Assembly: GCA_026391945.1 (NCBI GenBank)
Contig: JAPLDA010000059.1
Location: 1-45,232 of the forward strand
DNA length: 45,232 bases
Direction: 5' to 3'
From: Bacteroidota bacterium
GTDB lineage: Bacteria > Bacteroidota > Bacteroidia > AKYH767-A > 2013-40CM-41-45
The notes under the pieces are model-generated. The model ran no database searches, had not been told where the DNA came from, and worked only from the letters and a program-made list of their open reading frames with translations. The translations under genes and the position numbers were made by a program. Of the stretch, positions 25,893-45,232 are shown piece after piece. Position 1 is the stretch's first letter, and each line of letters begins with the position of its first letter.

Positions 25893-26951
25893 CTACAAAC
25901 TGAACCTGGCTCCAAAGGAATGGGTTCCGCTGAACGGGTTGGTGGCGCGGTAGGAATAATCCAGGCCAAAAGACTTTCCTGATTTTCCAAGCGGCAACTC
26001 CAGGGTAAATCCTGCTGCAGGGCCCGTGAACACAGAGGTGCGGAGGATGTCATCAAAAACATTCTCTTCATACGTAAATCCGCCGCGGATCATGAAATAA
26101 TTTTTAAACCCATATTCCAGTCCGAGTGTGTACTGATCCTGTGTAAAAGAATTCGAAGTAAACGTTCCGGCAATGGAAACACGGTGGTCTTTGGCGGGAT
26201 GAATATCATAAGTGGCACCGATGTTCACGAGAGAAGGAACTTCGAAACCTGCCGACCGGTGTTCTACCGTAAGCTCATAGTTGTTGGTGGTGGTTACCCG
26301 TGTCGACAACCCGTCGCCGCCGTAACTCATTGGGGTACCGACATTTTTCAACGAGATACCGAATTTCAGGTTGTCTTTGTCTTCATTGGATCCGGTGACG
26401 TATTGAATTCCTGCATCTACTGCGAAACCGGAAGCACTCACATTGGAAATGCTTTCATCAATCACCTTCAAATTGATTCCTCCGTAAATACTGTGAGAGA
26501 AAATTTTTGCATAAGCGAAATTGATGTTCATATAGCGCGGTGAAAATGTTCCGAGTCCGCCATCAGGATTATCAACGGTGGTTACCGGGATGTCACCGAA
26601 ATCCATGGCCATGATGGCCAGGCCGAGTACACTTGATTCACCCATCTTCTGTGAGAACCCGAATGAATTGATGTTGATTTCACTTCCTTTCAGCCATTGT
26701 GTATGGGAAAAAAGCACGTCCGTTTTTTTGGTAAATGCAATCCCTGCCACATTTCCGAAAATGGCTTCGAGACCATGTACAGAACCCGTATTGGCATTTC
26801 CCCAACCGGATGACCTTGCCCATGGGTTGATGAGCAATTCAGTTGCTCCCGCCTGTCCGGCGCGATCCGGGTTACCGGCCACCAACACGGTGGTCGGATA
26901 AACAGCGGCTGTAACGATCAAAAGAAAGATAAACTTATAGATATGTTTCAT
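25893..26951 (-). CDS. PorV/PorQ family outer-membrane protein
   Basis: A 352-residue exported protein with a signal peptide (MKHIYKFIFLLIVTAAVYPTTVLVAG). The mature start, AGATELLINPWARSSGWGNANTG and IFGNVAGIAFTKKTDVLFSHTQWL, is the signature of the PorV/PorQ (UPF0164) family, which are FadL-like beta-barrels. PorV itself shuttles T9SS cargo from the translocon to the attachment complex. Many paralogues have no assigned partner. This one follows the 1366-residue secreted protein after 37 bp, suggesting that it handles that protein specifically; this is inference. The C-terminus ends in SFGARFSL with a terminal hydrophobic residue pattern typical of barrels. Confidence 0.87.
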   Translation of the reverse strand: MKHIYKFIFLLIVTAAVYPTTVLVAGNPDRAGQAGATELLINPWARSSGWGNANTGSVHGLEAIFGNVAGIAFTKKTDVLFSHTQWLKGSEININSFGFSQKMGESSVLGLAIMAMDFGDIPVTTVDNPDGGLGTFSPRYMNINFAYAKIFSHSIYGGINLKVIDESISNVSASGFAVDAGIQYVTGSNEDKDNLKFGISLKNVGTPMSYGGDGLSTRVTTTNNYELTVEHRSAGFEVPSLVNIGATYDIHPAKDHRVSIAGTFTSNSFTQDQYTLGLEYGFKNYFMIRGGFTYEENVFDDILRTSVFTGPAAGFTLELPLGKSGKSFGLDYSYRATNPFSGTHSFGARFSL

Positions 26952-26988: not shown

Positions 26989-29900
26989 TTAGAAGGTATC
27001 CAGGTCAATCGGCCTCAACACTCCGAACCACTTGATTGTTTTCTCACCCACGCCGGGAACTTCCACATGGATGATATACACACCACTTGCAATCGGGATT
27101 CCGGCCGAATTCTTCAGATCCCAATCCAACGCTGTTTCCATGTTGTTAGCAGGATAAATGGCTTCTGAAGTATTATCAGCATCCACATCACGAATCAGTT
27201 TCCTGATCAGGGTACCGCTTGGAGTATAAATCGTAATGGTACATCTTGATGGAAGGTTGATGATCTTGACACGGTTATCCAACTGGTTCTTCTCATAAGA
27301 AGAGAATGAATAATATGGATTCGGAACGATGTTGATCAGGTCCAGTGCACTCTTCGCAGTTTCAAGATCTCCTGTAATCGGAACCAGGTCACCCGTGCTG
27401 AACTGGTACATCGGTAGCCCATTGTTTACAGAAGGTGTATCAGTCTGGTAAGCAATGTATGGTTTAGCAACACGAAGCCTTACGGTAGCCTTGTTTGACA
27501 ACAGCGACTGGCCTGAATTGAGCAGCGGGAATCCCACCCACATGCAGGTACCCCATGGTTTTTGGAAATTTTCTTTACTTAATAAAGAATTGGAACTGCT
27601 TGCGCTGCCGCTCGACTTGGTGATGTTTTTAAGTTTTGAATAAAGCGTATTGCAACTGTCGTACATCGGATTGATGTTGTCGTGTGCAAATACATACACC
27701 ACGTGCATACCGCCTAAAATATAGTGTCCGTTGGCATCAGCAATGGTGGAAGTCGGATTCCATCTCATATCAGCGCCGGTTTGTCCGGCAAAACCGGAAT
27801 CCGGGTTGAGGTAACTATCCTCACCGAAAGCGATGTTCAGTCTTTCGCCGGTTTCAACATTGATGGCATAGCCAGGAAAATAACTGTAGCCCGTGCCGGT
27901 ATCAGGAACCAAAGATCCACCGCTGAGTTTCAGCGACTGGCTTCTTCGAGGAGTACATTTCAGGGCGTGTCCGATTGTTTTTGTTGAATCCTTGTCTTCT
28001 TCAAACACAATGCACTTGCTCCAGTATCGGCTGTCGCTGGTAAACACGATATCAACGCTCGACTGGTTTTCAAAATGATGAACGGCTATATTCGGATTGG
28101 AAGGATCATAGGATGTATGAATTTTACTTCCCATATCGATGAGCGGTGCATTGATATAATTCACATTGTCGTTGTATGACCTGTCGTAAGCAGTAAACAA
28201 ATAAGGAGCCCATGTTCCACCGATTAACTTACTCCAGACTCTGTTACCGTCTTTTCCAAGCGACGATCCGATACTCGGGTAGTAATTGTCCTTGGCGCCT
28301 TTTCCACTTGCGATCCAGTCGAATGGACCATTGTCGATATCAGGCACACCACTTAACCATTTTGAATTCGGATCTTCAAAACCGATGGTAGCTTCCACAA
28401 ATCCTGACACAGAAGTTCCGTTTACCAAACCACCAGGATTCACCGGTTGGAAATTTTCATCAAGAATCTGTGTGAGGTTTACATAAAATCCGTAGTTGAC
28501 CGGGTTTCCGTTATTGTCTTTAAACTGGATGAGCTGATCGTATGGATAGCGGATAGTTTTTACAGAACTGAGTGTATCGTTGGTGCCGGTATTTTTCAGG
28601 TACCATTTCGAAGAATCAGCAACACCATCAGCCCACAGGAGGAAATTTCCACCTATCACTCTTACTGGGTCGTAAACACGGATATCTACCGGGCCCCTTG
28701 CTCTCTGATAAACCGGGTGAAGAGTACGGTTCGGGTTGGTTGTATTAAAGATAATTTCATCTACGGAAGCCTGAGTCATGTCCAATGCTCCCCTGTCGGA
28801 ACCTGTCAGGAATCCGTTACCGGAACCTTCGAGCCTTGTAATCTGCGGACCATCACCAAAAGAAGTAGATAGAATCAATCCATTGGCTTCCGGAGCAATT
28901 TTATGAGGAATGGCTGTGTAGGTGTTGATCCTTCTTCTGCCTGCAATGTAAGGTTTGCCGTCACCATCGGTGGTGTAATTGTAATTGAATGAATCGCTTT
29001 CCACAGTATTGTAACCGTAAGCAAGCACGGTGAAATAATACGTTTTATGATTGATGAGGTCGTCATCGCCGGTGGCAAATTTGTCTTTCTTAATTCTGAA
29101 AACGTGGCGAACACCGTTGTCCGTTCCATTCACTTCTTCTACGCCGTAGAAAGCAGATCCAAGGCTCGGATCCCGGAAGAAATTCACCACCTGGCCGATA
29201 CCATTTTTAATATCACACTGAAAAATAAGACGCGCCTTGTCAAGATCTTTGATTTCATTGGTGGTCACCGAACCATCTTTCAACTGGAACACCTGGTACC
29301 CTTCAAAATGATAGCGAGGGTCGGCTGCAGCCGTAGAAAGATTCGGGTCAATTTCAGAATACGTTTCATTATAGTTATTGGAACCTAACGGATTCGTGAT
29401 CGAGAACAACAATTCTTTGTCCAGTTCACGGATGCTCAGATCCGGAGCATCCGGGCCATTGGTGATTGCAAAATTATGGTCGAAAAGTTTTTGTGCTTTA
29501 TCATCTGCCGTACGTATTATCTGGACAGATGCCAGTGGGCCACCGCTGCCGGTGCGTCCCCATACTGCACCGGTAGTAATGTAATTCACGGCTCCGGGTA
29601 AAAGTGTAAAAGGTCCGGCTGACTGAAGGAAACGGCGGTCGTCAGGAGCATTTCCTGCAGTTACTTCATCCCACACTGCTTCCGATATTCCATTGGTTCC
29701 CCAATGAGTAGGATCGGAATCTCCAGGGAACATGAAGTCACAGGTATCGGTGGTAGCACCAAGTCCTCCGCCATGGCCGTTTCCGCCGTAGGTAATTTTG
29801 GTTCCGTCCTTCCAGATTCCCTTCATGTAATTATAATAATCAAGAGCAGAAGTCGGGTTTCCAGTTGGTGATCCATTGTTGTTGTAGTAAACAAACTTCG

Positions 29901-31089
29901 ACATGATGATCAACTCAGGCAAAACGGTATCAGGAAAACTGTCACGCACTCCGCTTGAATTAATATAATAGGTACAGTCTTTACATCCGTCCCTGTCGTT
30001 GTCAATTCCATCACCTGCATCAGCCTTTGGCCCCTGGAAAAAATCATAACCGATGGCTGGAGGATTGAAACCATAGCCGGTGATCCCGTCATCATAAGCA
30101 TCTCCGTTGTAACAGTAGCCGAATCCCCGTTTCACATCACAACCCACGTAGTCATCCAGATAATTTCCAAGATCTGGATCCACCCATGCACCAAAATAAG
30201 TTTGATTCACTGATAAAGCAGATCGGTTGATGATCTTGTATTTATAAAAAGTCATGTTGTTGATTTCATCGTTGGTTGCAAAAGCAAAAGCCTGTGCCTG
30301 GATTTCAAGACCAATGCTCGCACCGCCGGTTTCTTTGTGAACATTTCCAACATCGTTGAAAACCCACCAGATCGTCTGGTCACCAAGCAAATATTCTTTA
30401 TTCGGATTCATGGAATCCGGCACGGTAGGGTCTGAGTTCAGATTATAACCAGGGTAATCCCCGTCGGCCACATCATAAATTCCATCGCCGTGTTCATCAT
30501 GAAAAGGTGCAAGGAATCTAGCCTGGCCAACAGCCTGATCGCCATTTCCCGGCCACTCTTTGACATCTTTGGATGGAGTGATTGGTGTTGCTCCGCCTGT
30601 ATTGCTCAATGCAAAAGCATTTACTTCTTCGCGTGTTAACCTCCAGTGTCTGTCGTATTTGCTGCATACATCTGCTGTGATGGTTGCAACTCCTGCAATG
30701 GTATCAACCGGACCCGGCCAGAAATCACTTCCACTCTGACGGTAGGTTTGTGCAGCGACTTTCAGATTCCCACCGACATCTCTTCCACCGATCCACAAGG
30801 CACCGGCAAACAGTGAATACTTTTTCGAATCCTTTGGGACCTCGTATTGTGCGTTACCAACCAAATCCCACCACATATCACCGTTGATGTATATAGGGCA
30901 CCTGATGTTGTTCACATCGAGATCCTTTCGTGAAGTGGACGGTGTACAGGCCGCGGCTACCTGGTTTCCACCAGTCGGCGCCGTGTTGCGGTGCGGCATG
31001 CCTACGTTTTCCTTAGCGGAAAGGATTTGTACTGAGCCGAGTGTGATGATGGTTGCTATGGCAATCTTTTTCATCTTATTATTCATCAT
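26989..31089 (-). CDS. Large secreted protein with C-terminal sorting-like domain, unknown function
   Basis: A 1366-residue exported protein. The signal peptide is MKKIAIATIITLGSVQILSA, starting at the sixth residue of the frame. The mature part begins with a Pro/Thr-rich segment, then NNIRCPIYINGDMWWDLVGNAQYEVP and FAGALWIGGRD. A region near residues 335-395 is rich in Asp/Gly/Cys (GDGIDNDRDGCKDC, like a thrombospondin-type-3 or EF-hand-like calcium loop). The C-terminus has a beta-sandwich with NIVPNPYYSFSSYE, ITIYTPSGTLIRKL and IPIASGVYIIHVEVPG, as in T9SS type A or FlgD-like domains, but it ends in GVLRPIDLDTF instead of the usual basic tail. I do not recognise a characterised homologue. 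It lies between a TonB receptor and a PorV/PorQ-like gene in one operon. Confidence 0.82.
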   Translation of the reverse strand: MMNNKMKKIAIATIITLGSVQILSAKENVGMPHRNTAPTGGNQVAAACTPSTSRKDLDVNNIRCPIYINGDMWWDLVGNAQYEVPKDSKKYSLFAGALWIGGRDVGGNLKVAAQTYRQSGSDFWPGPVDTIAGVATITADVCSKYDRHWRLTREEVNAFALSNTGGATPITPSKDVKEWPGNGDQAVGQARFLAPFHDEHGDGIYDVADGDYPGYNLNSDPTVPDSMNPNKEYLLGDQTIWWVFNDVGNVHKETGGASIGLEIQAQAFAFATNDEINNMTFYKYKIINRSALSVNQTYFGAWVDPDLGNYLDDYVGCDVKRGFGYCYNGDAYDDGITGYGFNPPAIGYDFFQGPKADAGDGIDNDRDGCKDCTYYINSSGVRDSFPDTVLPELIIMSKFVYYNNNGSPTGNPTSALDYYNYMKGIWKDGTKITYGGNGHGGGLGATTDTCDFMFPGDSDPTHWGTNGISEAVWDEVTAGNAPDDRRFLQSAGPFTLLPGAVNYITTGAVWGRTGSGGPLASVQIIRTADDKAQKLFDHNFAITNGPDAPDLSIRELDKELLFSITNPLGSNNYNETYSEIDPNLSTAAADPRYHFEGYQVFQLKDGSVTTNEIKDLDKARLIFQCDIKNGIGQVVNFFRDPSLGSAFYGVEEVNGTDNGVRHVFRIKKDKFATGDDDLINHKTYYFTVLAYGYNTVESDSFNYNYTTDGDGKPYIAGRRRINTYTAIPHKIAPEANGLILSTSFGDGPQITRLEGSGNGFLTGSDRGALDMTQASVDEIIFNTTNPNRTLHPVYQRARGPVDIRVYDPVRVIGGNFLLWADGVADSSKWYLKNTGTNDTLSSVKTIRYPYDQLIQFKDNNGNPVNYGFYVNLTQILDENFQPVNPGGLVNGTSVSGFVEATIGFEDPNSKWLSGVPDIDNGPFDWIASGKGAKDNYYPSIGSSLGKDGNRVWSKLIGGTWAPYLFTAYDRSYNDNVNYINAPLIDMGSKIHTSYDPSNPNIAVHHFENQSSVDIVFTSDSRYWSKCIVFEEDKDSTKTIGHALKCTPRRSQSLKLSGGSLVPDTGTGYSYFPGYAINVETGERLNIAFGEDSYLNPDSGFAGQTGADMRWNPTSTIADANGHYILGGMHVVYVFAHDNINPMYDSCNTLYSKLKNITKSSGSASSSNSLLSKENFQKPWGTCMWVGFPLLNSGQSLLSNKATVRLRVAKPYIAYQTDTPSVNNGLPMYQFSTGDLVPITGDLETAKSALDLINIVPNPYYSFSSYEKNQLDNRVKIINLPSRCTITIYTPSGTLIRKLIRDVDADNTSEAIYPANNMETALDWDLKNSAGIPIASGVYIIHVEVPGVGEKTIKWFGVLRPIDLDTF

Positions 31090-31121: not shown

Positions 31122-34100
31122 TCAGAAGTTTAATTGCAAACCTAAACGGATTCTTCTTGGCAGACTGTAGTTGCCGGGGTTATTCACGGCTATCTGGTAT
31201 AAATCGACAAAAGACTGAGGACTGATTTGTCCGTTGGCTTGTGCAATACCTTCCGGTGATGAAAGGTATCCGTCATCACCTGGATTTCCTGTGGCTCTGT
31301 ATACTCCTGTCACGTTCATGGCATCCAGAACATTCAGCATCTGGAGGTAAACATTTAAAGACAATGGCTTCCGGCTTTCTCCGTCTTTCTTTTTGCCCAT
31401 CTTGATATCAAAACTCTTATCCACTTTGGCATCGATCCTGAACTGCCAAGGCAAACGTGAACCGTTGACGGAACCGGCAACAACAGAACGACCGTTAGCT
31501 GCAGAAGTAAAATCCGCCGTTGGTGTGATGTTGCTCTGGCGCGTGTAAGGAGTACCTGAACCGGCACGGAAAGTAAGGTACAAACCGGCTTTCGCAAGAA
31601 CCTGTTTGTTAAACCATTTTGGTCCATCATAATCTTTTCCTGATCCATAATGAAAATCAACAGTTGTGACAAACGTATGGCGTTGATCGAAATCGAGTGG
31701 TTTGGTTTCGCGCAGGTTGCTCTGCCCGGCACTTGATAAGATGGCTCCGTTGGAACCTGGATCAGAACCTGTACCATCAGCAAACTGAAGTGTGTAGCTT
31801 GCATTCAATCTTAAATTTCCGGTTCTCCTCAGATCATAAGAGAATGTCAGTCCTTTTACCGTTCCGAAATCCACATTTCCGTAAGTATAATAGTTCACCG
31901 GGAAGGCATAATTCACGGCGATAATTTCCGTCATGTCACGCAACTCTTTATAGAAAGCAGAAAGAGAAAATGCAGAACTCTTACTCAGCTTCTGTTCAAA
32001 ACGAATCTCATAATCGGTGGTCCGGGAAGGCTTCAGGTCGGGATTGGAAATCGTTCCTGCCTGCCCTTGTAACATGTACAGATAATCATACGGATTGAAT
32101 CGTAGCAAGCCCGATTCAGGCCGCTGGGTAAGGATATCGTAGTGAGCAGAGAAATTGGCTTCGTCAGAAATCGGGAATGAAAACGCAATACGAGGCATGA
32201 TGGTCGTTTGTGGTTCATAATCTTTGAAGGCATTGAGATCAATTTTCTTATGTTCCCCTGAAGCATCAGAAGGATTAATCAGCCATGGTTGAATGGTGGA
32301 ACCGGAACCTCCGGTGACATTTACAAGTGCCGACACATCGTTGATTTGCGATCCCTGTGCATCATACCATTTATCATCTTTCCTGAAACCAACGATAGAA
32401 GTTGGACTTTTGTAGTCGTTCACATAAACTGTGTAATCATCCTTAATGTTATCGGGAATATTACCGAGAAGCCTTGCGGCTGCATCGCCGGCGGTGTGGG
32501 CAGGCCACAACAGGTATTTGTCTTTGAGTGCTTTCTGGTTTGCATCAAAACGATCGACACGAATACCGATATTAAAGATCAGGTCGTTGAATGTAAATTT
32601 ATCCTGGATATAACCGGCAATGTAGTTTGGCTGGAAAGCCCCGATTTCACGCGTGTAATTCTTGTTCGCATCTTTCTTAAAATAGAAATCCGATATGCTT
32701 GGATTGCTGGTGGTCAGGTTTCCTTTGTAGTCGTACCCATAGTAACCGACAATTGGTGCCAGTTCATCAGCAGAAAATAAATCCAATGAATAGGTCGACG
32801 GACTATAGGCATCAATATCCACATAACCGTTGTTTGGAATGCCCAGTTTCTGATGAATATTTTCGTGGAAACCCGGAACCACTTCTCCGTCTACATTGGT
32901 AGTAGGAGTATATAACACATCGTAATTGATACCGGTGGTATCACCATTGGCATTGGTGATCACATGTATGGTCGTATCCATCTGCGTCATGTTTAAGGTA
33001 TTCTGCTGTTCATACGAACGCATGAGCGACCACAAACTGCTTGCACTCAATCCATAGGAGCGATCGATGCGCTGCTCATACTCCAGCCCGACAACGATGT
33101 TATGTTTTTTGATATCGGCTGAACCGGAAGCCGTAACACGGAATTGGGAAGCATCAGCTTTCCCGTAATAATTCTGGATTCTTCCGGTAGAAGCCCACAA
33201 ACCGTATACGTTCAGGTTAGCGCGGTTGTCCTGGTTGAGCAACCCGCCCGCCTGCTGGATTTCAAAAATGTTGTGATACGTCGCTCCGTTTGTATAAAGA
33301 TCGGTCGTATAATTTGCCGTAGTAGGATTTAAATCTGACGGATGAAAATCTACGTTAGAATCATAATACAAATAAAGTAGACTATCTGTATCAATGATGT
33401 GGCTTCCATTACCATCATACAACGTATCCGTGCCGGGAGCATAGAAAGGAGTTTTCGTACTCACGAACTGACCGATGTAGCCATAATCGAAAATACGATC
33501 GAGATGTTTGTCGTTTTGGGTGATGGAATTATTTTTTGAATAATCAACCTGGATGGAATAATAGGCATTCTTAATGGAAGAAGCAGAAGCTTTGGATTGT
33601 GATTCTGAAGATCCGAAGCGTTGTGTGACTTTACCGAATACTCTCCAGTTGTCGGTGAGCGTTTGTGAGTTGTTGGCACTGTTCATCAGGGCATAAATGC
33701 CGATGTAATTCCTGCCCTCGTTGTGATCATACGAACCACCGAACGTCAGCGTCACATTTTTCAACGGGCGAAAATCCAGTTTACCATTCACGCGGTACCC
33801 TTTGGAAGCTGCATTCGGACGGGCTTTCACATGTTGCAGGTCGTCATAAGTAAGAAACTCAGCCTGCTGGTTGAATCCTGTTCCTGTCTGGGATTTGATC
33901 AAAGGTGTTTTTTGAATTTCTGCAAGTTTGTCATCCTTTACCACCCATGTTCCGATTGCAGATGGGTTCGGGTCACCGTCAAAATAATAATCACCGGCTA
34001 CAAAGAAACCTGCCATCGGCATACCGGATTTTCTACCAACAGAATCGCGTTTGGTGAAAATAGGTCCGGCCAAATCAAAAGATACGATGTTGTTGTCGTA

Positions 34101-34832
34101 TTCATCGAACGGCCTGGAAGAAGCCACTTCTATTCCACCGGTAAATTCTTTCGAAGGCCCCCTGGTGGTAACGCTGATGATACCACCTGTAGCATCACCA
34201 TATTGGGCAGGAACTCCACCGGTAATCACGGTAATCTGTTCAGTCCCTTTATTGGAAACGCCCACACCGCCGCGCACCTTGATTCCATCCACGTAATAAG
34301 CGGTGGCATCAGAACGTGATCCGCGGATATTCAACGCATCGCCTTCATCACGTTGGTAAACACCGGCGCTGGTGGAAGCGATCGAATTCACATCACGAAC
34401 AGGGGCAGCCTGGATTTCATCAAACGTCGCCGTAAACTGGGTGGCGGGATTTCCTTTGTCGATCAGTGGTTTTACATATTCCGAAACTTCCACTTCTTTC
34501 AGGATGATTCCTTTTCCGAGTTCAATGTCGACGAACGTCATTTTATCGGTTGAAACGATTACACCGGTTCTCTCTGCCGCATTGAAACCGACACAGGTTG
34601 CTTTCACATCATACTTCCCCGGGTTTAACGGTTTGATGGTATAGTTCCCGTCGATATCAGTAACGGCCGCCTGGACCTGCGTTCCGCCAAGCAAGGCTGC
34701 TACGCTTGCAAAAGGAACTCCGTCCTTGGTGCCTTTTTCAAGAATACGTCCCTTGATTTCGCCTGTTTGTGCAAAGGCATTTAAACCAAGAAGGGAAATC
34801 AAAAATAGCGGCAGGTAAAACTTTCGTTTCAT
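31122..34832 (-). CDS. TonB-dependent receptor with carboxypeptidase-regulatory-like domain
   Basis: A 1236-residue outer-membrane receptor. After the signal peptide (MKRKFYLPLFLISLLGLNAFAQ) comes a carboxypeptidase-regulatory-like beta-sandwich (about residues 24-110, GEIKGRILEKGTKDGVPFAS ... PGKYDVKATCVGF), then the plug (RDVNSIASTSAGVYQRDEGD, NIRGSRSDATAYYVDGIKV, VITGGVPAQYGDATGGIISV), and about 900 residues of barrel strands ending in LPRRIRLGLQLNF with a terminal Phe. It fits the TonB-receptor type with an extra N-terminal domain, but no SusD-like lipoprotein follows, so it is not a classical SusC/D pair. The next genes are the large secreted protein (32 bp) and the PorV/PorQ-like protein. 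The substrate is unknown. Confidence 0.93.
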   Translation of the reverse strand: MKRKFYLPLFLISLLGLNAFAQTGEIKGRILEKGTKDGVPFASVAALLGGTQVQAAVTDIDGNYTIKPLNPGKYDVKATCVGFNAAERTGVIVSTDKMTFVDIELGKGIILKEVEVSEYVKPLIDKGNPATQFTATFDEIQAAPVRDVNSIASTSAGVYQRDEGDALNIRGSRSDATAYYVDGIKVRGGVGVSNKGTEQITVITGGVPAQYGDATGGIISVTTRGPSKEFTGGIEVASSRPFDEYDNNIVSFDLAGPIFTKRDSVGRKSGMPMAGFFVAGDYYFDGDPNPSAIGTWVVKDDKLAEIQKTPLIKSQTGTGFNQQAEFLTYDDLQHVKARPNAASKGYRVNGKLDFRPLKNVTLTFGGSYDHNEGRNYIGIYALMNSANNSQTLTDNWRVFGKVTQRFGSSESQSKASASSIKNAYYSIQVDYSKNNSITQNDKHLDRIFDYGYIGQFVSTKTPFYAPGTDTLYDGNGSHIIDTDSLLYLYYDSNVDFHPSDLNPTTANYTTDLYTNGATYHNIFEIQQAGGLLNQDNRANLNVYGLWASTGRIQNYYGKADASQFRVTASGSADIKKHNIVVGLEYEQRIDRSYGLSASSLWSLMRSYEQQNTLNMTQMDTTIHVITNANGDTTGINYDVLYTPTTNVDGEVVPGFHENIHQKLGIPNNGYVDIDAYSPSTYSLDLFSADELAPIVGYYGYDYKGNLTTSNPSISDFYFKKDANKNYTREIGAFQPNYIAGYIQDKFTFNDLIFNIGIRVDRFDANQKALKDKYLLWPAHTAGDAAARLLGNIPDNIKDDYTVYVNDYKSPTSIVGFRKDDKWYDAQGSQINDVSALVNVTGGSGSTIQPWLINPSDASGEHKKIDLNAFKDYEPQTTIMPRIAFSFPISDEANFSAHYDILTQRPESGLLRFNPYDYLYMLQGQAGTISNPDLKPSRTTDYEIRFEQKLSKSSAFSLSAFYKELRDMTEIIAVNYAFPVNYYTYGNVDFGTVKGLTFSYDLRRTGNLRLNASYTLQFADGTGSDPGSNGAILSSAGQSNLRETKPLDFDQRHTFVTTVDFHYGSGKDYDGPKWFNKQVLAKAGLYLTFRAGSGTPYTRQSNITPTADFTSAANGRSVVAGSVNGSRLPWQFRIDAKVDKSFDIKMGKKKDGESRKPLSLNVYLQMLNVLDAMNVTGVYRATGNPGDDGYLSSPEGIAQANGQISPQSFVDLYQIAVNNPGNYSLPRRIRLGLQLNF

Positions 34833-40222: not shown

Positions 40223-43200
40223 TTACTCTACAACAATTCTCATTGTTTGAGTTTCAGCTCCTTCTTTTTCAATACTTAAGAGATACATTCCCTTTGCAAC
40301 GTTGCTCAGGTCAATCTCCTGTAAGTTGGCACCTTCTTGTGCTGTGTTGGCTTCGCTGATGAGTACGTTACCAATCATATCAACTACTTTCAGAGTGTAT
40401 TTCTCTTTGGAAGCAGCATTGAAGGATACATTCAGTTTACCTGAAGTTGGGTTCGGATATGCATCCAGCTGAGTGGCCGTTAACACCGGTTCAGCAGCAG
40501 TTCTGCAGGCAGAAACACTAACCACTTTAGTCACACCGGCTGCAGCAGCACCGCAGGCATTGGATACCTGGAGAGAGATGGTTGCAGATCCGGTAGCCGA
40601 AGCAGCGAAGTTGATCGTCACATTTGCAGTACCCTGGCCGGCTGAAACAACTGCTCCGCCGGTTACTGTCCAAACGTAGTTGGTAGCACCCAATACGGCT
40701 GCAACTGAGAACGACTGAACGGCCGCTGTATTCTTACAAATTGCAGAAGGACCGCTGATCGCTCCAGGAATAGCAGGGCGAGGAGTTACATTCTGACAAC
40801 GTGTTACACCTAAACCGCAGGCATTCACAGGAGTTACACAGATATTTCCAGGAGAAGTAAATCCGGCAGTAAAGTTCACCGTGATAACTGACTGGGTAGC
40901 TGTAGTAGTAGGGCCTGTTGCAATCGTCACCCCGGCTGGTACTGACCAGTTATAAGAGGTAGCACCTGCAACCAGGTTACATGCATAGGATACTCCGCTC
41001 TGACCGCATACACCGGTATTCGCACCGAAGATGGCAGTAGGTTGGTTTGGAGTGGAACGGACTGCAACAACTCTTGCAGGGCCGGCACCACAACTATTGC
41101 TTCCTGCAACACTGATGTTACCGGAAACAAAACCAAGTGGGAATGTAATGTTTACACTGAACACGTTACCTGCTGTTACCAGTGGGTTACCAGTGTTGAC
41201 ACCGTCCGTGATGGAACAACCTGCCGGAGCAGTCCAGGTAATGGCTGTTGCACCGCCGAATGGAGTGATCGCATACGTGAAGGTACTTCCGCCACACAAT
41301 CCAACAGATGGGAATATCGCCATGTTAGGCTGACCAGTGATGGTTCCGTATACGTAACCGGTGAGACCACCGCTGTTACCTACACAGTTCGTAGCATACA
41401 CGTTTACTGTACCGTGATCGAAACCGGCAGCAGCAGCAACGGTGATACTGGTAGTACCCTGACCGCTAACCAATGTCAATCCTGTTCCGCTTACTGTCCA
41501 TACGTAGCTGGTTGCATTTGCAACAGCAGGAATAGAGAAGGTTGCATTCGCAGGACCGCAAACGGTCATGTTCGCAGGACCGGAAATAGGTCCAGGGAAA
41601 CCAGGTCTTGATGTAAGAACCGGGATCGGGAGACAAGAAGTAGAACTTGTTCCGCAAGCGTTATGAGCCGCTACACAGATAAACCCACCGGCATACGTGC
41701 TGCTGAAGTTTACTGTGATAGAATTTGTAGTAGAGAAACCACTTGCACCTGCAGGAAGTGTCCAGATATAAGTATTACCCGGAACATTCGTTACAGAGTA
41801 AACAATTCCTGAAGAACCTTTACAAGCACCTGCTGGACCGCTCACTGCACTTGGAACAGATGGAGGTGTACCTGCTGAACCTACAACAGCTGTTGCTGAT
41901 CCGGTACATAAGTTAGCATCTGTAATGGTTACCGTGTAAGATCCCGGAGCAAGACCAGTGGCTGTTTGAGTGGTTTGTCCACCTGGCATCCAGAGGAATG
42001 AATAACCACCTGCACCGCCTGTTGGTGTTACTGAAGCAGTTCCTGTAGCTCCTACACAACCGGAATTGGTTGTAGAAGTAGTTCCCTGAACTTTGGTAGG
42101 CTGACCGATTGTAATGGTAGTAGAACCGGAACAACCCTGATCGTCAGTTACTGTAAAGGAAGGAGAACCTGCACCGTAAGGGCAAAGAACACCAGTACCT
42201 GTAGAATAAGTACCGGATCCGCCGGTAGCTGATACCGTTACACAAGTGGTTCCGTTGAAGCACTGGATAACGCCAGGAGTTGCAGATACAACAACCGGAT
42301 TAGCCGTGTGGAATATACCTGTTAAAGGATCGCAACCGTCAATGGTACAAGGGTCACCGTCACTCACGTTCACAGCATTGTGGTATGGACCAGTTACAGG
42401 ATCACAACCGTCAATTGTACAAACGTTGTTGTCGTCAACACTGATTGCAGTGTGGTAAGGACCCGTTACAGGATCACAACCGTCAGTTGTACAAACGTTG
42501 TTGTCGTCTACGCTGATTGCAGTGTGGTAAGGACCCGTTACAGGATCACAACCGTCAGTTGTACAAACGTTGTTGTCGTCTACGCTGATTGGATTGTGGA
42601 ACACACCTGTTGCAGGGTCACAACCGTCAGTTGTACAAACGTTGTTGTCATCTGTATTCACAGCTGTATGGTAAACACCAGTCACAGGGTCACAACCGTC
42701 AGTTGTACATGCATTGTGGTCGTCCACTGAAACCGCTGTATGGGTGATGATTCCCGTTGCTGGATCACAAGCATCGATCGTACATACGTTGTTGTCATCC
42801 ACTGATACAGGAGTATGGGTGATGATTCCCGTTGCTGGATCACAAGCATCAATGGTACAGGCGTTGTTGTCATCAATATTAACAGGAGTATGATAAGGAC
42901 CTGTTACCGGATCACAACCGTCAATCGTACATGCGTTGTTATCATCAACACTGATAGCAGTGTGATAAGGACCCGTTACTGGATCGCAACCGTCAATCGT
43001 ACATACATTGTTGTCGTCCACGCTGATTGGAGTGTGGAATACACCTGTTGCAGGATCGCAACCGTCTGTTGTACAAACGTTGTTGTCATCTATATTCACT
43101 GGAGTGTGGTAAACACCTGTTGCAGGATCACAGAAGTCATTCGTACAGGCGTTGTTGTCATTCGGATCAACCGCTGTATGGTAAACACCTGTGATAGGAT

Positions 43201-44002
43201 CACAGAAGTCATTCGTACAGGCATTGTTATCATCTACGCTGATGGCTGTATGGTAAGGACCTGTTATAGGATCACAACCGTCTGTTGTACAAACGTTGTT
43301 GTCGTCAACACTGATAGCAGTATGGTAAATTCCGGTTACCGGATCACAACCGTCGATCGTACAAACGTTGTTGTCATCTACACTCACTGGAGTGTGGGTG
43401 ATGAGTCCCGTTGCAGGATCACAAGCATCGATCGTACATACGTTGTTGTCATCCACTGATACCGGAGTATGGGTGATGAGTCCTGTTGCAGGATCACAAG
43501 CATCGATCGTACATGCGTTGTTATCATCGATGTTTACAGGTGTATGGTATGGACCCGTTACTGGATCACAACCGTCAATTGTACATGCGTTGTTATCATC
43601 AACACTGATAGCAGTGTGATAAGGACCCGTTACAGGATCGCAACCATCAATTGTACAAACGTTGTGGTCATCAACACTGATTGCAGTATGGTAAGGACCC
43701 GTTAAAGGATCGCAACCGTCAATTGTACAAACGTTGTTATCATCTACGCTGATTGGTGTATGGCTGATGAGTCCTGTTGCAGGATCACAAGCATCGATCG
43801 TACAAACGTTGTTGTCATCCACTGATACCGGAGTATGGGTGATGAGTCCCGTTGCAGGATCACAAGCATCAATGGTACAGGCATTGTTGTCATCGATATT
43901 TACAGGTGTATGGAAAGGACCTGTGATAGGATCACAACCGTCAGTTGTACAGGCATTGTTATCATCCACGCTGATTGGCAATGGTACAGGCATTGTTGTC
44001 AT
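40223..44002 (-). CDS. Giant CTDC-like repeat T9SS surface protein, C-terminal part (after frame break)
   Basis: This frame carries the C-terminal 1259 residues of a protein whose N-terminal part is in the next entry. It holds 23 units of 24-25 residues (DDNNxCTxDxCDPxTG...), then a SprB-like repeat (GGAGGYSFLWMPGG ... GSYTVTITDANLC, about 42110-41880), about five PKD-like/Ig-like domains (41870-40500, for example YVWTVSGTGLTLVSGQGTTS), and a T9SS type A sorting domain at the end (AYPNPTSGKLNVSF, IDLSNVAKGMYLLSIE, MRIVVE). The first residues (MTTMPVPLP) are an artefact of the frame break and no real start. Such a protein would be exported by T9SS, possibly anchored to A-LPS, and serve adhesion or structure. 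The repeats resemble the Dictyostelium CTDC repeat; function is unknown. Confidence 0.85.
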   Translation of the reverse strand: MTTMPVPLPISVDDNNACTTDGCDPITGPFHTPVNIDDNNACTIDACDPATGLITHTPVSVDDNNVCTIDACDPATGLISHTPISVDDNNVCTIDGCDPLTGPYHTAISVDDHNVCTIDGCDPVTGPYHTAISVDDNNACTIDGCDPVTGPYHTPVNIDDNNACTIDACDPATGLITHTPVSVDDNNVCTIDACDPATGLITHTPVSVDDNNVCTIDGCDPVTGIYHTAISVDDNNVCTTDGCDPITGPYHTAISVDDNNACTNDFCDPITGVYHTAVDPNDNNACTNDFCDPATGVYHTPVNIDDNNVCTTDGCDPATGVFHTPISVDDNNVCTIDGCDPVTGPYHTAISVDDNNACTIDGCDPVTGPYHTPVNIDDNNACTIDACDPATGIITHTPVSVDDNNVCTIDACDPATGIITHTAVSVDDHNACTTDGCDPVTGVYHTAVNTDDNNVCTTDGCDPATGVFHNPISVDDNNVCTTDGCDPVTGPYHTAISVDDNNVCTTDGCDPVTGPYHTAISVDDNNVCTIDGCDPVTGPYHNAVNVSDGDPCTIDGCDPLTGIFHTANPVVVSATPGVIQCFNGTTCVTVSATGGSGTYSTGTGVLCPYGAGSPSFTVTDDQGCSGSTTITIGQPTKVQGTTSTTNSGCVGATGTASVTPTGGAGGYSFLWMPGGQTTQTATGLAPGSYTVTITDANLCTGSATAVVGSAGTPPSVPSAVSGPAGACKGSSGIVYSVTNVPGNTYIWTLPAGASGFSTTNSITVNFSSTYAGGFICVAAHNACGTSSTSCLPIPVLTSRPGFPGPISGPANMTVCGPANATFSIPAVANATSYVWTVSGTGLTLVSGQGTTSITVAAAAGFDHGTVNVYATNCVGNSGGLTGYVYGTITGQPNMAIFPSVGLCGGSTFTYAITPFGGATAITWTAPAGCSITDGVNTGNPLVTAGNVFSVNITFPLGFVSGNISVAGSNSCGAGPARVVAVRSTPNQPTAIFGANTGVCGQSGVSYACNLVAGATSYNWSVPAGVTIATGPTTTATQSVITVNFTAGFTSPGNICVTPVNACGLGVTRCQNVTPRPAIPGAISGPSAICKNTAAVQSFSVAAVLGATNYVWTVTGGAVVSAGQGTANVTINFAASATGSATISLQVSNACGAAAAGVTKVVSVSACRTAAEPVLTATQLDAYPNPTSGKLNVSFNAASKEKYTLKVVDMIGNVLISEANTAQEGANLQEIDLSNVAKGMYLLSIEKEGAETQTMRIVVE

Positions 44003-44087
44003 CGATATTTACAGGTGTATGGAAAGGACCTGTGATAGGATCACAACCGTCAGTTGTACATGCGTTGTTATCATCCACGCTGATTGG
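43870..44087 (-). repeat. 109-bp tandem duplication that breaks the reading frame
   Basis: Positions 43870-43978 and 43979-44087 are two adjoining 109-bp copies, both starting CAATGGTACAGG and ending CTGATTGG, with only two mismatches noticed (in CAGGCATTG versus CATGCGTTG). 109 is one more than a multiple of 3 and does not match the 72/75-bp unit. Removing one copy joins both frames into one continuous protein. Confidence 0.9.
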
Positions 44088-45232
44088 TGTATGGAACACG
44101 CCCGTTACAGGATCGCAACCATCAATTGTACAAACGTTGTGGTCATCAACACTGATTGCAGTATGGTAAGGACCCGTTACAGGATCACAACCGTCAATTG
44201 TACAAACATTGTTGTCATCTACACTCACTGGAGTGTGTGTGATGAGGCCTGTTGCAGGATCACAAGCATCGATCGTACATACGTTGTTGTCATCAACAGA
44301 TACAGGTGTATGGGTGATGATTCCAGTTGCTGGATCGCAGGCATCAACAGTACAAGCATTGTTGTCGTTGGTGTTAACAGGGTTATGGAAAATGCCGGTC
44401 ACAGGATCGCAACCGTCAATCGTACAGGCGTTGTTGTCATCCGTATTTACAGGAGTGTGGAACACGCCGGTTACAGGATCACAACCATCGGTGGTACATA
44501 CATTGTTGTCATCCACTGAAACTGGTGTATGGGTGATGACTCCGGTTGCAGGATCACACGCATCTGTTGTACATACATTGTTATCATCCACCGAAACTGG
44601 TGTATGGGTGATGACTCCGGTTGCAGGATCACACGCATCAACTGTACAAGCGTTGTTGTCGTTGGTATTCACTGGAGTGTGGAACACGCCGGTTACTGGA
44701 TCGCAACCGTCTGTTGTACAAGCATTGTTATCATCAACATTCACTGGAGTGTGGAACACACCGGTTATTGGATCACAACCATCTGTCGTACAAACGTTGT
44801 TATCATCTACACTAATTGGAGTATGTGTGATGAGGCCGGTTGCAGGATCGCAGGCATCAGTCGTACAAACATTGTTGTCGCTGGTGTTTACTGGAGTGTG
44901 GAACACACCGGTTACAGGATCGCAACCGTCGGTGGTACAGGCATTGTTATCATCAACATTTACTGGAGTGTGGAACACACCGGTTATAGGATCACAACCA
45001 TCGGTTGTACAAACGTTGTTATCATCTACACTAATTGGTGTGTGTGTAATGAGGCCGGTTGCTGGATCGCAGGCATCAGTCGTACAAACATTGTTGTCGC
45101 TGATGTTTACTGGAGTGTGAAACACACCGGTTACAGGATCGCAACCGTCGGTGGTACAGGCATTGTTATCATCAACATTTACTGGAGTGTGGAACACACC
45201 GGTTATAGGATCACAACCATCTGTTGTACAAA
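43962..45232 (-). CDS. Giant CTDC-like repeat T9SS surface protein, N-terminal part (partial at right edge)
   Basis: The frame is open to the window edge (it reads CTTDGCDPITGVFH before 45197), so the true start lies outside. Visible are 16 complete repeats of the DDNNxCTxDxCDPxTG type, some with a Ser or Asn replacing the first Asp (SDNNVCTTDACDP, NDNNACTVDACDP). The frame ends within the 17th unit, after DDNNACTI, in a short out-of-frame tail (ANQRG) caused by the 109-bp duplication. As sequenced, the product would lack the SprB-like, PKD-like and T9SS sorting domains and could not be exported by T9SS. Either the break is an assembly error in repeat DNA or the gene is truncated in this strain. 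Confidence 0.85.
   Translation of the reverse strand, partial: CTTDGCDPITGVFHTPVNVDDNNACTTDGCDPVTGVFHTPVNISDNNVCTTDACDPATGLITHTPISVDDNNVCTTDGCDPITGVFHTPVNVDDNNACTTDGCDPVTGVFHTPVNTSDNNVCTTDACDPATGLITHTPISVDDNNVCTTDGCDPITGVFHTPVNVDDNNACTTDGCDPVTGVFHTPVNTNDNNACTVDACDPATGVITHTPVSVDDNNVCTTDACDPATGVITHTPVSVDDNNVCTTDGCDPVTGVFHTPVNTDDNNACTIDGCDPVTGIFHNPVNTNDNNACTVDACDPATGIITHTPVSVDDNNVCTIDACDPATGLITHTPVSVDDNNVCTIDGCDPVTGPYHTAISVDDHNVCTIDGCDPVTGVFHTPISVDDNNACTTDGCDPITGPFHTPVNIDDNNACTIANQRG
44671..45232 (-). repeat. 219-bp higher-order repeat inside the array
   Basis: Three-unit blocks (24 + 24 + 25 residues = 219 bp) recur almost unchanged at 44671-44889 and 44890-45108, with a third copy running off the edge. 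The distance between equivalent ACT codons is exactly 219 bp. The near-identity of DNA, not only of protein, points to recent block duplication. Confidence 0.85.

Follow-up and report, generated by a model that had tools for sequence, protein, structure and literature searches.

Tandem arrays of the CTDC repeat (Dicty_CTDC, PF00526) are known from matrix proteins of Dictyostelium (PMC4931340). A 2021 modelling study counts PF00526 among the repeat families without known structure (PMC8078820), and no report of a disulfide pattern for the family was found in the literature we searched. In Myxococcus xanthus, the Cys-rich repeats of TraA have been proposed to form a rigid stalk, and the authors of that work note some resemblance to PF00526 (PMC3325183). 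A solved example of small Cys-rich modules is the arc and arm of the Entamoeba histolytica Gal/GalNAc lectin heavy chain (HgL; 9GJB, 9GJF), where an outer Cys pair reportedly closes each module and inner Cys join neighboring modules (PMC12948311).

Here we analyzed a stretch of 45,232 nucleotides from a Bacteroidota bacterium (contig JAPLDA010000059.1; hereafter the window), which encodes a large protein with a CTDC array. It shares with the Dictyostelium matrix and signaling proteins (psiA, psiF, psiN, pdiA and matrix proteins; PMC4931340) a common profile, a 24-residue period, the CTxDxC core and the secreted tandem arrangement, but it is bacterial and carries a T9SS sorting domain. The unit also occurs in arrays of the four-Cys and two-Cys types in Myxococcota and other bacteria (L031-L109); four Cys are usual among the relatives examined, whereas the window units carry two. 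TraA is likewise tandem, with a proposed rigid stalk for a surface domain, but its repeats belong to TIGR04201, which is not reported for the window proteins, and it has PA14 and MYXO-CTERM in place of T9SS. With SprB-type T9SS gliding adhesins the protein shares a T9SS sorting domain and a SprB-like repeat; however, it consists mainly of CTDC hairpins, and SprB-like sequence is confined to one segment below the profile cut-off. The HgL arc and arm may resemble the modeled rod in their small antiparallel beta modules and elongated rigid arm (PMC12948311), yet HgL has no detectable sequence similarity to CTDC arrays.

A two-cysteine CTDC array

Reading from position 45230 to about 42278 on the minus strand, the window encodes 40 complete CTDC units (Table 1). 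Each unit follows the motif DDNNxCTxDxCDPxTG, is 24 or 25 residues long and carries two Cys in C-x4-C spacing, as the first-pass annotation had described; 17 lie in the frame of 43962-45230 and 23 in the open reading frame at 40223-44002. Merging a near-identical 109-bp duplication yields 39 units in a single frame. The earlier description of the units as uninterrupted does not hold: the duplication breaks the frame. The proposed CTDC identity was borne out by profile searches, in which PF00526 (curated cut-off 27 bits) reached 561 bits over 23 stretches of one open reading frame and 444 bits over 18 of the other, with a best E of 3e-173. These above-cut-off tandem units place the array in Dicty_CTDC. 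The profile matched at 40 places in the genome, all on one contig. Four Cys per module characterize most relatives, whereas 40/40 window units have two and lack the outer pair; the array is a two-Cys variant of PF00526 whose profile match is unaffected by the missing pair. Pfam matches to TAZ zinc finger and Peptidase_C97 inside the array were taken as cysteine-pattern cross-hits.

Table 1. Features of the CTDC array gene, in window coordinates
Feature	Position	Strand	Remarks
Array, N-terminal part	43962..45230	-	17 complete CTDC units and a broken 18th; runs off contig end; ends at frame-breaking stop; PF00526 444.5 bits
Direct duplication, 109 bp	43870..44087		two copies 98% alike (period 109); not a multiple of 3; breaks reading frame
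Open reading frame, 1259 aa	40223..44002	-	second part of array and C-terminal domains; ATG falls inside duplication
Array, C-terminal part	42278..43972	-	23 complete two-Cys CTDC units, 24 or 25 residues long; PF00526 561.4 bits; hairpin model of 43097-43534
SprB-like repeat	41978..42082	-	PF13573 E 2.2e-6, 27.6 bits, slightly below cut-off 28
Five PKD_6 (PKD-like) domains	40460..41910	-	PF19408, 5 stretches, E 5.5e-63 and 1.6e-68; outer bounds approximate
T9SS type A C-terminal sorting domain	40229..40462	-	Por_Secre_tail/TIGR04183; TIGR04183 E 2.9e-12, PF18962 E 5.9e-17

Nine positions (C, T, D, C, D, P, T, G and H) never vary among the 40 units, yet 54% of comparisons of four-fold third positions at codons for the same residue show a difference; the array is therefore neither a chance occurrence nor fresh low-complexity sequence. 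The Asp/Asn linker is also strongly conserved across the window units. Units 1-3 are closest to units 4-6, and their DNA identity of 94-99% indicates a recent block duplication. By these measures the array is old and maintained by selection, with some blocks recently duplicated. The order of the two length classes (A and G) is non-random, with a pattern probability of about 0.005 under shuffling, as had been noticed from the sequence; the built-in pitch read into it is not upheld, since the order derives in part from block duplication and the additional residue of the 25-residue units extends the hairpin turn, not the linker, in the AlphaFold2 model. Third-position GC of the array gene (window 40223-45230) is 0.35-0.37, low relative to the 0.59 of the neighboring SMC gene.

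Relatives in other genomes

Matches to PF00526 occur in 6/149 relatives and 3/395 genomes of the phylum, counts that include the genome of the window itself; the other matching genomes have one to three units each. Relatives are encoded by 359 stretches of the GTDB collection; 79 loci were kept, mainly from Myxococcota but also from Planctomycetota, Nitrospirota, Chloroflexota, a Methanothrix and two Bacteroidota (L066, L106). The longest relative array has about 129 units by motif count. Two-Cys arrays are found in Polyangium sp. y55x31 (L031) and at L032, L034, L046 and L047. At L034-L036 and L048 a lipobox-like stretch and a Gly/Ser-rich linker precede the array, and these proteins are probably anchored at the N-terminus, whereas the sorting domain of the window protein is C-terminal. 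Weak Kelch matches lie downstream of the array in two relatives.

Several other arrays stand apart. In a Chitinophagales protein (L066:2612-11842), a predicted membrane stretch is followed by about 87 CTDC units of the four-Cys type, and the C-terminal part resembles an outer-membrane domain. First-look counts gave about 1,800 to 1,900 CTDC candidates in each of three Myxococcales genomes (G534-G536, with loci L081, L084 and L090). At L094, L104 and L109, a second module type, CTTNDxC, with one residue more between its cysteines, alternates with CTDC at a spacing of about 51 residues.

Predicted fold of the array

AlphaFold2, given 58 aligned blocks, modeled the window units with a pLDDT of 97.7 as one beta-hairpin per unit and an overall rod, in agreement with the regular stalk first suggested; a four-Cys relative was likewise predicted as a hairpin per unit (pLDDT 97.5). 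Each unit would consist of a strand (CTxDxC), a turn (DPxTG), a second strand (xxHTP) and an Asp/Asn-rich linker. In both models the first Cys (C1) sits just before, and the second (C2) near the end of, one strand of 5-6 residues.

Foldseek searches of the PDB with both models returned HgL alone above noise (E 3.6e-4 and 7.7e-5, probability 1.00). Global TM was low (0.25-0.30), and we therefore read the likeness as local, probably running along rods of different curvature. By sequence, neither single arrays nor the profile recovered HgL as a match at E <= 10, and sequence searches found no solved PF00526 relative. Structure matches by sequence to DddY and an isomerase were weak and not credible.

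Cysteine wiring

The typical bacterial CTDC module has four Cys: C1 and C2 in the core, C3 past the turn and C4 before the linker. Across modules, C4(n-1) and C3(n) occur or go missing as a pair (phi 0.915, with agreement in 1840/1908 modules), against 1782 +/- 4.3 agreements in within-locus shuffles, none of which reached 1840 in 2000 trials. The same modules gave no within-locus coupling of C3(n) with C4(n). This covariation shows an outer pair, C4(n-1)-C3(n), that would bridge the DDNNxCTxDxC core and so close the module in the ancestral type. Among 188 two-Cys modules elsewhere, the lost C4 is replaced mostly by V/I/P/T and the lost C3 mostly by V/I/A/M; in the window, where the outer pair is missing from every unit, these positions are mostly V/I/P/L/T.

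The inner pair leaves a different trace. Modules without C1 gather at run ends: 21/24 have no next module, as against 809/1844 (p 1.5e-5). In adjacent modules, C1(n) and C2(n+1) were missing together in 3/3 cases (p 2e-8), while the opposite combination, C2(n) with C1(n+1), reached 1/8 and was not significant (p 0.09). In a two-module domain at L082, the first module lacks C2 and the second lacks C1. The C1(n)-C2(n+1) rule was drawn from the very loci that first support it. Viral contigs and plasmids yielded no separate CTDC set, and 40 further stretches, with few losses, were taken instead from the genomes sampled before. In these, C1(n) and C2(n+1) were lost together in 1/2 (p 0.005), with no joint loss in the reverse direction, the run-end association was not significant (p 0.69), and L172 holds one clear exception to the rule. 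Nearly all units of this set have both C3 and C4, so it adds little on the outer pair. The last window unit (42349) retains C1 and has no obvious cap. From these loss patterns, the inner Cys likely form a ladder between neighboring units; its direction, C1(n)-C2(n+1), is less certain than the ladder itself.

The same rod could instead carry its inner disulfides in the register of the Entamoeba lectin, from C2(n) to C1(n+1). HgL is the sole PDB fold match, and the third Cys of a module is described as joined to the C-terminal neighbor and the second to the N-terminal one, a register opposite to that suggested for the relatives, in modules described with three strands (PMC12948311). HgL and the four-Cys relatives would have in common the outer pair within the module, which is absent from the window, and inner Cys directed to neighbors, as described for HgL and as suggested by the loss pattern in the relatives. 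However, the joint losses tie C1(n) to C2(n+1), not C2(n) to C1(n+1), and modules at C-terminal run ends drop C1, not C2; we consider the lectin register unlikely, if not negligibly so.

Disulfides of C-x4-C spacing occur in other proteins, and with two Cys in every unit each could close its own, as the first-pass annotation had proposed. Both models, however, place the two Cys at or beside opposite ends of one 5-6-residue strand, closure within the unit would provide no partner for the run-start cap Cys or for the Cys of end modules that lack C1, and in the relatives the losses couple C1(n) with C2(n+1) across units. One disulfide inside each unit is thus quite improbable.

With moderate confidence, then, we favor a T9SS-exported stalk of hairpins stapled to one another as the best overall explanation. 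In the ancestral-type four-Cys module the inner pair would join neighbors as C1(n)-C2(n+1). In the window protein, with the outer pair gone, the unit-to-unit staples alone would remain, one disulfide per interface.

Oxidation and the thioredoxin-like neighbor

The stapled stalk would require oxidized cysteines, whereas they would stay reduced in a rod stabilized by Ca2+ within the Asp/Asn-rich linkers or by metal bound to the Cys. Such a rod would fit the well conserved linker of the window and our failure to find either DsbB or VKOR in the genome, but the outer Cys covary and disappear as a pair, as disulfides do, and Ca2+ goes unmentioned for the related HgL modules in the available part of their report (PMC12948311), which leaves a metal-held rod very unlikely. 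The thioredoxin-fold neighbor, first thought to serve the cysteines of the array, was rejected as its helper: full-length orthologs in six related genomes have other neighbors and no CTDC array beside them. The ortholog at L132 is flanked by a large protein that resembles the PKD-like part and has no CTDC units.

C-terminal domains and export

The PKD-like and T9SS sorting domains read from the sequence were both recovered by profiles, and the SprB-like domain was located as well, with a score marginally under its cut-off (Table 1). The sorting domain scored 46 bits with TIGR04183 (cut-off 23), and the genome, with at least 150 sorting domains, also encodes the SprA translocon (2680 bits), in keeping with the initial view of the protein as T9SS cargo. 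It would be a large surface protein with an N-terminal rod of stacked CTDC beta-hairpins, followed by SprB/PKD-like domains and the type A sorting domain, which would direct it to the cell surface. The stalk would hold an N-terminal domain off the cell.

Elsewhere in the window, a PorV/PorQ family protein (25893-26951, minus strand; NF033709, 148 bits, cut-off 90), possibly a T9SS-related shuttle, is encoded downstream of, and on the same strand as, 26989-31089 and 31122-34832. The former encodes a 1366-aa protein without a Pfam or NCBIfam match; the latter is TonB-dependent-receptor-like.

Frame break and contig end

The duplication ends the upstream frame at 43962 (..CTIANQRG-stop) and restarts the next. 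The ATG of the downstream open reading frame falls within it and is probably not the genuine start. At the DNA level, units 17 and 18 do not differ. The copies of the 109-bp duplication differ at the edge only, which fits a join of assembled pieces; since the sequence on either side is otherwise intact and conserved, we favor a possible assembly artefact, with recent slippage as another possible reading. The array gene runs off the contig end at 45232, and a search of the contigs of this assembly found no units on others; the start, signal peptide, N-terminal domain and full length are therefore missing, and the array has at least 39 units. That the frame break is real and the gene a decaying pseudogene, whose C-terminal fragment would not be exported for want of a signal peptide, accords with the broken frame and with a downstream open reading frame lacking any start that bears one, but there is only a slim chance of this given that no further stop occurs in the array on either side, that the nine positions stay invariant although synonymous sites have diverged, and that the copies differ as joined assembled pieces would.

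Implications for CTDC proteins

We tentatively suggest, as a possibility short of an expectation, that CTDC is a modular covalent rod in which each hairpin is disulfide-stapled to the next and end modules drop the partnerless Cys. The window protein would be the minimal form, with internal disulfides shed and the ladder kept, and the construction may be common to bacterial giant surface proteins, slime-mold matrix proteins and the Entamoeba lectin arm. With a confident hairpin model, a cysteine covariation map and a fold link to a solved lectin, this repeat construction can be tested directly, both in bacteria and in Dictyostelium. A ladder of this kind, if true, would offer a simple long rigid rod whose length could be adjusted by the addition of units without leaving unpaired internal cysteines.
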